Origin: Halichondria panicea
Taxonomy: Eukaryota; Porifera; Demospongiae; Suberitida; Halichondriidae
Direction: 5' to 3'
NCBI RefSeq assembly: GCF_963675165.1
Contig: NC_087379.1
Location: 3,969,442-4,033,441 of the forward strand
DNA length: 64,000 bases
This document shows positions 6,499-26,228 of the stretch, in pieces. Under the pieces are notes generated by a model. That model saw nothing but the letters and a program-made list of their open reading frames with translations, was not told the origin of the DNA and ran no database searches. A program made the position numbers and the translations under genes. The first letter of the stretch is position 1; each line of letters starts with the position of its first letter.

Positions 6499-7983
6499 TT
6501 AGCTACTGTTCTCTTGGCATTCAAGTACAATAGAGACGTCTTGCGATAAATCAATGGAGGCTGAGGTGGTACTCGAGTCATTGTAGGGATTTGAATTTGG
6601 AATAACTGTCATCTCAATACTATTTTCTTTGTCACCCAAATCTACTGATTGCGCTGGTACAGAATATTTGCTGTCTTCTGGTATGTAAGCTTCCTCAAAA
6701 GAGCTTTCTTTTTCAATACTATTCGTGAAATCGCTCCTCTGTCTCGTAGAAGTATTTGCATATGAAATAACTTCATTTGGTGAGGATGGTGACCTTGAAT
6801 TGTTTCCAGTGGTTTTATTGCCTTTTGATAGCTGTTTGGATAAAGCATTTAGCCTCAAAGTTTTGGTCCAAAAGGCTCGACCCTCAGAGCTAACGATCAC
6901 AACAAATATGAAGAACACAAAGCCTTGAAATGCGTTGAAAATAACAAAGAGATAGCTGAATACTAATTCGGATGCTTTATCGAAGGTGAAAGCACCAAAT
7001 ATCCAAGCAAGGCCTAGGACCACAGATATACTGAAAATGCCCATCATCAGTTTCAAGTTAGCGATATTGAGCTTCGACGTATTGTTCATCCCCACACCTT
7101 GTTTTTGGTGCATTTTCTTGATAATAACCCATAAAACACAAGCAAAAACAATCAAATTGAATATCAGCACTAGATATATTGGGATTAGTGCAGTACCCAG
7201 GAGTACATAAAGGTTGCTAATGAAGCACCTGGGATCAAATTAAATTATTATTATTATTACAAAAACATCAATTTATTTATACTTACGCTGTTGATCTATC
7301 CTCAGCCATATCTGTGCCACTGAAAATTAGATAATTATTTCCTGAGCTCAGTGTTCCAAGAGCGGCTGTTACAAATACGAGTGGAAGTACTGCAGGAAAA
7401 CAAAATTATTACAGATTTGTAGATCTATTTATAAATGCCATAATTCGTTTGTATATGCATGACAATTATGGTAAACGTACTCCAACAAATTAGGGAAGTG
7501 ATGAATAGGAATCTTTTTGTGATAATTCCAAAGACCAAAACTAGCTTGCGGAACATTAGCAATGCTTGAGCAGCCATCCATAACATTGAAGAAAGCACAA
7601 AATATTGTAACAGGCTGGACATGAATGTACAGATTCCCTTAATTTCAGTTCGGTCGATCCCTATCATGAATGTCAAAAGCATGCCAAGTACAGAGATGCA
7701 GAACTGCACTTGAAAGTAAGTAATGTCCAATGAGCGAAGTTTCCTGCACATTTACAGTATATTCATGGTACGTACAGTCACATGCACAAGCTTTAGCCAT
7801 AATTATAACCAAACCATTCACAAGCATAAATTTCCTGAAATTCCACACAATATAAACTCACTTTGATCCTGTGAGCGTAATGATCGTTATGATGAGCCCT
7901 ATGATTGACAGTACAGATCCAATATAAGATATTGCATCCAGAACTTCATCACTCTTTCGTGGGCTAAGTCTTGCTTGAATATT
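6499..7983 (-). other. Giant GPCR: 7TM domain and cytoplasmic tail
   Basis: Exons 7862-7983 (TM1), 7481-7743 (TM2, TM3 and start of TM4), 7287-7389 (rest of TM4) and 6499-7228 (TM5-7 and tail). Family B2 marks are visible: [19 protein letters not shown] in TM3, [10 protein letters not shown] in TM6 and [12 protein letters not shown] in TM7. A tail of about 130 residues is rich in Ser, Thr and Asn and ends CQENSS. The 7TM part is the G-protein coupling portion; the coupling class cannot be read from sequence. Confidence 0.92.
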
Positions 7984-25900: not shown

Positions 25901-26228
25901 ATAACAATTGCAAAATGATTAAACATGTACCATTTCCGGCTGAAAGTTGTTGACATGCTGCTTGAGCCACATTTATATCCATCCCATTGTCACACACAGT
26001 ACCCCATACTCCAGAGTGGCACACTTCCAGACGTCCACAAAGGTAGTCTGTTTCTTGTTGAATTAATCTGGCATCTCCGTCAGAGCACTGGCACTTTCCT
26101 ATTATGGGCAACATTAGTAATACCTAGCATAGCTACCTCCTAATGAGCTCACAAAGTTGCTTACCTAACCCTAAAAGTTGCACAATGAACCACCAACAAA
26201 GCAAGAAGTGCTTAGTATGAGAGCACAT
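6499..26228 (-). CDS. Giant SRCR/EGF adhesion GPCR with two HormR-GAIN-GPS units
   Basis: I infer 68 exons with start ATG at 26228-26226 and stop at 6501-6499. Their lengths sum to 11,262 nt, giving about 3,753 residues with all junction phases compatible. Order (approximate residues): signal peptide 1-22; 15 SRCR and 13 EGF-like domains 22-2375; HormR 2376-2450; GAIN1 with GPS1 about 2659-2710; Ig 2733-2854; linker and HormR 2855-3035; GAIN2 with GPS2 about 3298-3348; 7TM 3349-3620; Ser/Thr-rich tail to 3753. In adhesion GPCRs the GAIN domain self-cleaves at the GPS, and the freed strand acts as a tethered agonist. The SRCR/EGF region should face outside as the ligand-binding part. Both GPS motifs have CNHLT. 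No stop, terminal exon or second signal peptide separates the SRCR array from the GPCR part, which supports one gene, but transcript evidence is needed. Confidence 0.85.
8034..10813 (-). other. Giant GPCR: second HormR, GAIN and GPS
   Basis: Exons 10710-10813, 10598-10656, 10222-10364 (a linker I do not recognise), 9887-10125 (Horm[34 protein letters not shown]), 9584-9679, 9256-9429, 8801-8980, 8599-8686, 8291-8538 (GAIN), 8182-8233 and 8034-8134 (GPS). GPS2 has [17 protein letters not shown] and [13 protein letters not shown]. The hydrophobic strand after Leu-Thr is the presumed tethered agonist and runs within about 20 residues into TM1, as in canonical family members. Confidence 0.85.
9730..9835. 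repeat. Perfect tandem duplication in intron (about 53 bp x 2)
   Basis: The block beginning TCTCTATAGTGACACAGGAC and ending GTGGCTTTGTTG occurs twice back to back with no difference I can see, so the duplication is recent. It lies in the intron between 9679 and 9887 of the giant GPCR. Confidence 0.85.
10947..11482 (-). other. Giant GPCR: linker and Ig domain between the two GPS units
   Basis: Exons 11416-11482 (linker with [16 protein letters not shown]), 11228-11353 and 10947-11183. The last two form an Ig domain: first Cys in LLIVCETS, Trp in FRVEWRY, second Cys in [10 protein letters not shown]. It is split by a phase 1 intron. Confidence 0.8.
11533..13135 (-). other. Giant GPCR: first HormR, GAIN and GPS
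   Basis: Exons 12912-13135 (Horm[25 protein letters not shown]), 12570-12796 (GAIN helical part), 12367-12463, 12146-12191, 11835-12088 (beta part with [16 protein letters not shown]), 11731-11779 and 11533-11639 (GPS). GPS1 reads [18 protein letters not shown], then [13 protein letters not shown], with all expected Cys and Trp and the His-Leu-Thr cleavage site. The 46-base exon at 12146-12191 was placed by its CCTTATCGTCCAG acceptor; reading from the earlier acceptor at 12256 hits a stop. After GPS1 the chain goes into an Ig domain, not a membrane helix. Confidence 0.8.
13193..14646 (-). other. Giant GPCR: SRCR13-15
   Basis: SRCR13 exons 14476-14646 and 14224-14403; SRCR14 13933-14169 and 13701-13856; SRCR15 13407-13604 and 13193-13354. 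SRCR15 has [18 protein letters not shown] and the second-half signature [17 protein letters not shown]14 carries an insertion of about 20 residues in its first half, as do SRCR4, 6 and 11. SRCR15 joins in phase 1 directly to the HormR exon at 13135. Confidence 0.82.
15362..15553. mobile_element. TACCGTATAG-family MITE, copy 1
   Basis: It begins TACTGAATAGCGGGTAATTT and ends AAAATTACCTGCTACGGTA, an inverted pair, with internal motifs TTCGTGGGTAAAATTTC. Other copies are at 16616-16791, 42536-42715 and 56585-56794. It sits in the intron between EGF10 and EGF11 of the giant GPCR. Confidence 0.6.
16616..16791. mobile_element. TACCGTATAG-family MITE, copy 2
   Basis: It begins TACCGTACAGCGGGAACTTT and ends AAATTTCCCGCTTTACAGTA. 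It occupies the intron between the two SRCR11 exons. No coding content. Confidence 0.6.
18016..19698 (-). other. Giant GPCR: SRCR8-9 and EGF6-9
   Basis: SRCR8 exons 19522-19698 and 19265-19426; SRCR9 is a single 405-base exon 18842-19246; EGF6-9 are 18642-18767, 18446-18580, 18209-18349, 18016-18150. SRCR9 is the only SRCR of the 15 without the usual middle intron, so that intron was lost here. The EGF run begins with DIDEC, AIDAC, DINEC and DIDEC, so the second has lost the typical acidic-Glu-Cys start. Confidence 0.82.
19765..21232 (-). other. Giant GPCR: SRCR6-7 and EGF4-5
   Basis: SRCR6 exons 20996-21232 and 20779-20940; SRCR7 20543-20722 and 20172-20345; EGF4 19975-20103; EGF5 19765-19884. 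SRCR7 is near consensus ([31 protein letters not shown]). EGF4 begins [12 protein letters not shown] and EGF5 DIDECEV, both calcium-binding type. The cassette order repeats that of the block upstream. Confidence 0.82.
21370..22742 (-). other. Giant GPCR: SRCR4-5 and EGF2-3
   Basis: SRCR4 exons 22518-22742 and 22228-22407; SRCR5 21998-22177 and 21769-21945; EGF2 21596-21712; EGF3 21370-21492. SRCR4 has [22 protein letters not shown]5 has [21 protein letters not shown]2 begins DIDEC, matching the calcium-binding EGF start. EGF3 has the same spacing. All exons are symmetrical phase 1-1. Confidence 0.82.
22937..26098 (-). other. Giant GPCR: SRCR1-3 and EGF1
   Basis: SRCR1 exons 25931-26098 and 25425-25568; SRCR2 25163-25321 and 24637-24756; SRCR3 24343-24528 and 23201-23359; EGF1 22937-23068. 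SRCR halves carry the usual signatures ([21 protein letters not shown]). SRCR2's second half is degenerate, with only two Cys and no clear acidic Asp-Cys motif. EGF1 starts DLNEC, close to the calcium-binding EGF consensus. All junctions are phase 1. The intron between 23360 and 24342 is enlarged by a TIR element. Confidence 0.8.
23782..24307. mobile_element. Non-autonomous TIR element in giant GPCR intron
   Basis: The left end CAGTGGCGGATCTAGG and right end CCTGGATCTGTCACTG are imperfect inverted copies. They are related to the element at 2910-3778 (CAGGGGCGGATTTAGG...CCGCCACTG). No transposase frame and no clean target duplication remain. It explains why this intron is about 1 kb among introns near 100 bp. 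Confidence 0.6.
26165..26228 (-). other. Exon 1 of giant GPCR: signal peptide
   Basis: ATG followed by a hydrophobic core ([20 protein letters not shown]) and a GTAAGC donor in phase 1. The next exon begins at 26098 after an AATAG acceptor and continues with GKCQCSDG, the start of the first SRCR. This fixes the gene start. The local ATG at 26112 lies in the intron. Confidence 0.75.

Follow-up and report, generated by a model that had tools for sequence, protein, structure and literature searches.

A probable adhesion G-protein-coupled receptor gene with an SRCR/EGF array and two GAIN cassettes in the sponge Halichondria panicea

Does a single sponge gene join an array of SRCR and EGF domains to an adhesion G-protein-coupled receptor (GPCR)? 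The question is raised by the minus strand of a 64,000-nucleotide stretch of contig NC_087379.1 (the window) from Halichondria panicea (Demospongiae, Suberitida; genome of 131 Mb in 39 contigs), where an original prediction made from the letters alone had read positions 26228 to 6499 as one such gene. We find one coding unit as far as the first transmembrane helix (TM1), two homologous GAIN cassettes with an H-L-T motif at both GPS sites, and paralogues built on the same chassis. The predicted protein would run from a signal peptide through 15 SRCR and 13 EGF domains, cassette 1, an immunoglobulin (Ig)-like domain, a domain termed X and cassette 2 to a seven-transmembrane (7TM) region. Taken as a whole, we consider it probable that this is one gene for an adhesion-type GPCR with a double-GAIN ectodomain, a distal cleavage arm, a one-helix isoform and a history of cassette doubling.

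One coding unit from the start codon to TM1

Independent support for the gene came from a public protein of the same species, P0003 (3,370 residues; NCBI-derived), named 'deleted in malignant brain tumors 1 protein-like isoform X4' and called X4 here. BLASTP aligned it with our model over 3,353 columns at 99.94% identity with one gap; all model residues through TM1, starting at the initial methionine (1–3351), agree, X4 having one extra valine. The record is the representative of 14 member sequences, X4 being the one compared. Independent annotation thus gives one product that holds the SRCR array, the two GAIN regions and TM1, and the match to the end of TM1 places array, GAIN region and TM1 in one gene. 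Isoform numbers in annotation usually reflect transcript evidence. The predicted single gene is accordingly borne out to TM1 by X4 and to the stop by the exon model, and no interruption of the array was found, X4 being continuous through it to TM1.

A wrong join of two neighbouring genes, one for a secreted SRCR/EGF/GAIN protein and one for a separate Ig/GAIN GPCR, would account for a first GAIN-GPS cassette that lacks a 7TM, as though a 7TM between two receptors had disappeared. We hold this to be very improbable. X4 continues across the junction, which refutes the two-gene explanation to the extent that transcripts underlie the database model; a similar linker exon follows GPS 1 in three relatives (C2m, C2p and C11, below); and when gene breaks were allowed at zero cost, the exon chain was cut inside SRCR 2, SRCR 3, SRCR 13 and the 7TM, with no cut between 14332 and 7818.

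The exon model was built with a simple exon-chaining program whose codon model was trained on the window gene itself. A low intron penalty shattered the gene into 177 exons and higher penalties gave 69–79, the unguided chain on the gene strand having 76. Seven peptide hints placed by hand (four in the 7TM, one each in SRCR 10, SRCR 11 and HormR 2) brought the count to 70, which was reduced to 67 by dropping three spurious-looking exons (16877-16830, 15541-15488 and 9679-9575) and moving one donor. This hand curation preceded the comparison with the database protein, and X4 bears it out. The curated model has 67 exons and 3,717 codons including the stop, in place of the about 68 exons and 3,754 codons counted originally, and its predicted ends, ATG at 26228 and TAA at 6499, were verified on the minus strand. 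Its introns are GT-AG in 66 of 66 cases, with a median of 87.5 bases and a maximum of 983.

The exons do chain in compatible phase throughout, as had been argued, but such chaining is by itself weak evidence for a gene, because the program could also link 42 exons of this region on the other strand (score 82 versus 877 on the gene strand, a contrast that is partly circular given the training of the codon model). Over 27–64 kb of the window, where other real genes may lie, 76 exons were chained on each strand. With its ends left free, the chain overran to 29775 in every one of three runs and to 1260 in two of them; the start therefore rests on the signal-peptide-like sequence and X4, and the stop on the 7TM.

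Two GAIN cassettes and the seven-helix end

A Pfam scan of the conceptual protein returned 15 SRCR stretches (8 + 7), EGF, two GPS and one 7tm_2. GAIN is present where a HormR/GAIN region had been predicted, but as two cassettes rather than one. Profiles of each cassette, built on either side from the window gene and the relatives C2m, C11 and C15 (C2p left out), aligned in hhalign with an E of 1.2e-44 over 348 columns, and identity between cassettes 1 and 2 is 27–32% in four genes. The intron phase series 1>0, 0>0, 0>2, 2>0, 0>1, 1>0, 0>1, 1>0 is identical in both eight-exon cassettes of C2m and C11; the window gene has the same series with some introns missing, and the series of C15 fits cassette 2 and, with introns missing, also the GAIN of cassette 1. 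At the level of sequence and intron phase, the two cassettes are homologous.

Against solved structures, the cassette 1 profile (three members, C15 left out) matched best the GAIN domains of ADGRG2 and ADGRG6 (1.6e-14 to 1.3e-13), and the cassette 2 profile (four members) those of ADGRG1, ADGRG6 and ADGRG2 (1.5e-18 to 4e-16). Each of these vertebrate receptors has one matched GAIN stretch, whereas the window gene has two; to our knowledge, none of the three contains SRCR. Adhesion GPCRs, as far as we know, usually have one GAIN per receptor, a state from which the window gene departs. Between its cassettes lie a linker exon, the Ig-like domain and domain X, and no 7TM.

The smaller domains are more weakly marked. 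Ig_3 matched with E-values of 0.022 in the window gene, 3.2e-5 in C2m and 0.0011 in C15, all below the Pfam cut-off. HRM was matched in cassette 2 of two of the four family members scanned (best E 0.0021) and not in that of the window gene. For domain X neither Pfam nor PDB sequences gave a credible match; a SEA-like fold is conceivable. A perfect two-copy tandem repeat (52 bases; 9732-9835) lies in the intron that separates GAIN 2 from the HormR 2 exon.

At the membrane end, GPS 2 and a GAIN that matches solved GAIN domains stand directly ahead of TM1. The genomic sequence keeps the whole 7TM open and in frame, and 7tm_2 matches the model protein with an E of 1.7e-26 over positions 3–249 of 250. 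The last 18 residues of X4 equal exon 7389-7287 read in the frame that is reached by skipping 7743-7481, with the new junction falling inside the first codon. X4 is therefore an exon-skipped form with TM1 only, an isoform that the original prediction had missed. TM2–7 would belong to the gene on the evidence of the exon model and the paralogues.

It is conceivable that the gene mainly makes this one-helix membrane SRCR protein, with TM2–7 minor or decaying, since the representative database protein skips the TM2–4 exon and carries no PF00002. We judge this unlikely. The TM2–7 exons are open, in frame and matched by 7tm_2 at the strength given above; X4 stands for 14 sequences, others of which may hold the 7TM; and the TM2–4 exon appears to be under purifying selection, as measured in the paralogues rather than in the window gene. 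Its ratios of nonsynonymous to synonymous substitution rates (dN/dS) in three paralogues were 0.05, 0.07 and 0.21 (three pairwise comparisons of 76 codons each), beside 0.23–0.37 for the GAIN regions of the same three (six comparisons).

Double-GAIN relatives in the same genome

The genome was scanned for GPS (68 matches) and 7tm_2 (at least 164 matches), and the lists were compared by eye. Seven places have two GPS no more than 5 kb apart on the same strand with no 7TM between them among the at least 164 7tm_2 matches listed. One of them is the window; C2 and C13 have two each, C11 and C15 one each. The order SRCR array, GPS, GPS, 7TM recurs on one strand at three other places. With local profiles, C2m has 24 SRCR and 36 EGF, C2p 42 and 78, and C11 78 (74 of them covering at least 75% of the profile) and 150, all on the same chassis; these models, which include some doubtful exons, come like that of C15 from exon chaining alone. 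The chain at C11 (about 1998021-2079700) sums to about 17,050 residues within 80 kb, a predicted single gene whose array repeats at lags of 5.3–5.4 kb with 79–88% DNA identity. C2m, C2p and C11 all begin with an open stretch bearing a signal-peptide-like MQLTEQ start, after which comes a nidogen-like region (NIDO E 7.2e-39 in C2m; by eye in C2p and C11). The linker-like exon after GPS 1 has the same phases in C2m and C2p, and the C11 model took another, weak donor.

At C2:6935001-7025000 the genes of two SRCR double-GAIN receptors are arranged head to head, their starts about 0.3 kb apart, resembling an inverted duplication. In C2p a long GT microsatellite adjoins the Ig-like exon.

At C15 (3867311-3879214), Sushi repeats and a Calx-beta stretch stand ahead of cassette 1 and further Sushi repeats ahead of the Ig-like domain; local profiles found no SRCR or EGF match in the 30 kb examined. 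At C13 (775501-780500), two GAIN-GPS cassettes are 88.8% identical (230/259). A Thr-Pro-Ser-rich linker is open together with GPS 1 in one 270-residue frame, both GPS read HLT, and a 7TM follows; gene conversion between the two cassettes is possible. The second C13 pair is known from profile matches only. Because the cassettes are 27–32% identical in four genes versus 88.8% at C13, GAIN most likely doubled at least twice, once long ago and once recently.

The older doubling might instead reflect fusion of two adjacent adhesion GPCR genes and loss of the first 7TM. Given the low identity between the cassettes, the shared intron pattern, compared here within double-GAIN receptors, could be general to all sponge adhesion GPCRs. 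C13, with cassettes 88.8% identical and GPS 1 and the linker in one open frame, shows on the other side that the simpler route, duplication within a gene, occurs in this genome, and we consider fusion rather unlikely and cassette duplication the better account.

Protein database searches returned no relative in other sponges and, besides X4, one sea urchin and two bird proteins. The C2m query missed X4, a certain relative within the length range, so the lack of sponge relatives is uninformative. The homologue search that had been proposed was thus too insensitive across sponges, and the same domain order was found in relatives within the genome.

Proposed architecture, known systems and feature map

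In adhesion GPCRs, GAIN cuts itself at the GPS and the new N-terminus is kept buried as an agonist of the 7TM. For the present gene we propose a receptor in three parts: an SRCR/EGF recognition arm that could be detached, a guard section in the middle made of Ig, X and GAIN 2, and a core that signals. The SRCR/EGF array would bind surfaces or ligands of probably microbial or self origin. The membrane-proximal GAIN with GPS 2 would be the working one, cleaved and with its tethered agonist held beside TM1, and GPS 1 would act as a second, distal cleavage site at which the arm could come off without unmasking the GPS 2 agonist. Exon skipping would yield the one-helix isoform, which would keep the ectodomain and be unable to signal as a GPCR. 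The chassis may have arisen by doubling of one HormR-GAIN-GPS cassette, on which phase 1-1 module arrays were then swapped and expanded. G-protein coupling and scavenger-type ligand binding are presumed functions of the receptor.

GPS 2 fits this proposal, reading HLT in five of five family genes. Several observations weigh against it. GPS 1 is not kept in the relatives (HLG in C2m, HLS in C2p and C11, HAG in C15). Since GPS 1 is HLT here and not in the relatives, the distal cut is likely in the window gene and optional in the family, where it may be dispensable; at C15 the HAG site is unlikely to be cleaved. The chassis itself varies: at C15, HormR 1 is missing and Sushi repeats separate GPS 1 from the Ig-like domain. 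The HormR and Ig assignments fall under the Pfam cut-offs, and the database protein compared, one of the 14 sequences behind the record, ends after TM1.

A wider reading is offered tentatively, as something we hold less likely than its negation: that double-GAIN receptors arose more than once in sponges, that autoproteolysis at two joints in series divides such a receptor into three pieces (arm, guard and 7TM), and that whole SRCR/EGF cassettes multiplied on one such chassis into what may be the largest animal GPCR (C11), wiring pattern recognition to G proteins. Apart from this reading, the genes form a concrete family in a workable sponge that would tie scavenger-type recognition to a GPCR. 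The doubled GAIN breaks the one-GAIN pattern that underlies models of adhesion-GPCR activation, and serial cleavage sites would make what the tethered agonist needs directly testable. ADGRV1/VLGR1 has about 6,300 residues and other domains, against about 17,000 predicted for the C11 relative; abstracts call this very large adhesion GPCR the largest of its family.

DMBT1 and other SRCR proteins, which gave the window gene its database name, have SRCR arrays like it. DMBT1-like SRCR proteins are secreted and not known to have GAIN or 7TM, whereas X4 itself has GAIN/GPS and TM1 and our model the 7TM. The public record compared conceals the receptor behind a name that belongs to a secreted mucosal protein.

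The original prediction knew of no described receptor with as many SRCR domains in this order; that such a receptor is undescribed is not supported. Krishnan et al. 2014 (PMC4302439) reported from Amphimedon queenslandica two demosponge adhesion GPCRs, Aq712029 and Aq715659, that have multiple SRCR repeats like the window gene. Compared by description, they differ in that the section on them mentions no second GAIN/GPS. SRCR proteins have been discussed for sponge responses to microbes (PMC6208332, PMC8242945). In a transcriptome study of H. panicea, over 600 SRCRs and 57 GPCRs with GPS were counted, and its relevant passages describe no joint SRCR-GPCR. Within 300,000 of its 412,533 characters, a 2026 review of adhesion GPCRs names no sponge, Porifera or SRCR, and a second GAIN is absent from its relevant passages. 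Literature searches for a receptor with two GAIN or GPS domains did not turn one up; most subscription journals lay outside their coverage, so this is no proof of novelty. The SRCR-GPCR link, reported in 2014, is not new; what sets this gene apart is a GAIN chassis that is doubled and recurs, together with predicted giant relatives.

Table 1. Features of the gene in window coordinates. Local profiles were built from the window gene.
Feature	Position	Strand	Remarks
Whole gene	6499..26228	-	curated exon model, 67 exons, 3,716 residues; residues 1-3351 as in the database protein except 1 extra V
Exon 1: start codon, signal-peptide-like sequence	26165..26228	-	same start in X4; signal peptide judged by eye
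SRCR 1-2	24637..26098	-	exons 26098-25931, 25583-25425, 25321-25163, 24756-24637; Pfam, local profiles
SRCR 3	23201..24540	-	exons 24540-24343, 23359-23201, divided by the longest intron (983 bases); Pfam, local profiles
EGF 1	22937..23068	-	local profiles
SRCR 4-5	21769..22742	-	Pfam, local profiles
EGF 2-3	21370..21712	-	local profiles
SRCR 6-7	20172..21232	-	Pfam, local profiles
EGF 4-5	19765..20103	-	local profiles
SRCR 8-9	18842..19695	-	SRCR 9 within single exon 19207-18842; Pfam, local profiles
EGF 6-9	18016..18767	-	local profiles
SRCR 10-12	15899..17966	-	Pfam, local profiles
EGF 10-13	14727..15841	-	local profiles
SRCR 13-15	13193..14646	-	Pfam, local profiles
HormR-like domain 1 (opens cassette 1)	12912..13135	-	Pfam HRM E 0.0078, 17.0 bits vs cut-off 26.2; aligns with cassette 2
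GAIN 1 and GPS 1	11533..12796	-	last exon 11639-11533, CNH-L/T-NF (slash, cut); Pfam GPS 3.2e-13
Linker exon after GPS 1	11416..11482	-	without transmembrane segment; in X4; similar exon (N-x-N/D-P-x-x-C) in paralogues
Ig-like domain, two exons	10947..11353	-	weak Ig_3 match, E 0.022
Domain X, three exons	10222..10813	-	alignable in paralogues
HormR-like domain 2 (opens cassette 2)	9887..10125	-	PDB match to ADGRG6 starts inside HormR 2
GAIN 2 and GPS 2	8034..9429	-	last exon 8134-8034, CNH-L/T-NF; Pfam GPS 2.6e-13
TM1 exon	7862..7983	-	last full exon common in frame to X4
TM2-4 exon	7481..7743	-	skipped in database isoform X4
Exon after TM4	7287..7389	-	read in another frame, giving the 18-residue tail of X4
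Last exon: TM5-7, cytoplasmic tail	6499..7228	-	7tm_2 match over whole 7TM

The array stands as predicted, with 15 SRCR from Pfam (PF00530, scanned in two pieces with E of 5.7e-130 and 1.9e-126) and 15 SRCR and 13 EGF in the order SSSeSSeeSSeeSSeeeeSSSeeeeSSS from the local profiles. The first 43 introns, as far as the exon with HormR 1, are all in phase 1, so that array exons are freely duplicable, which would explain the growth of the arrays. The second half of SRCR 2 is short and divergent, and the SRCR 2 intron (25163-24756) holds two similar open stretches, perhaps a duplicated piece. Elsewhere in the window, an exon chain starting near 63566 on the minus strand resembles, by eye, a major-facilitator transporter.

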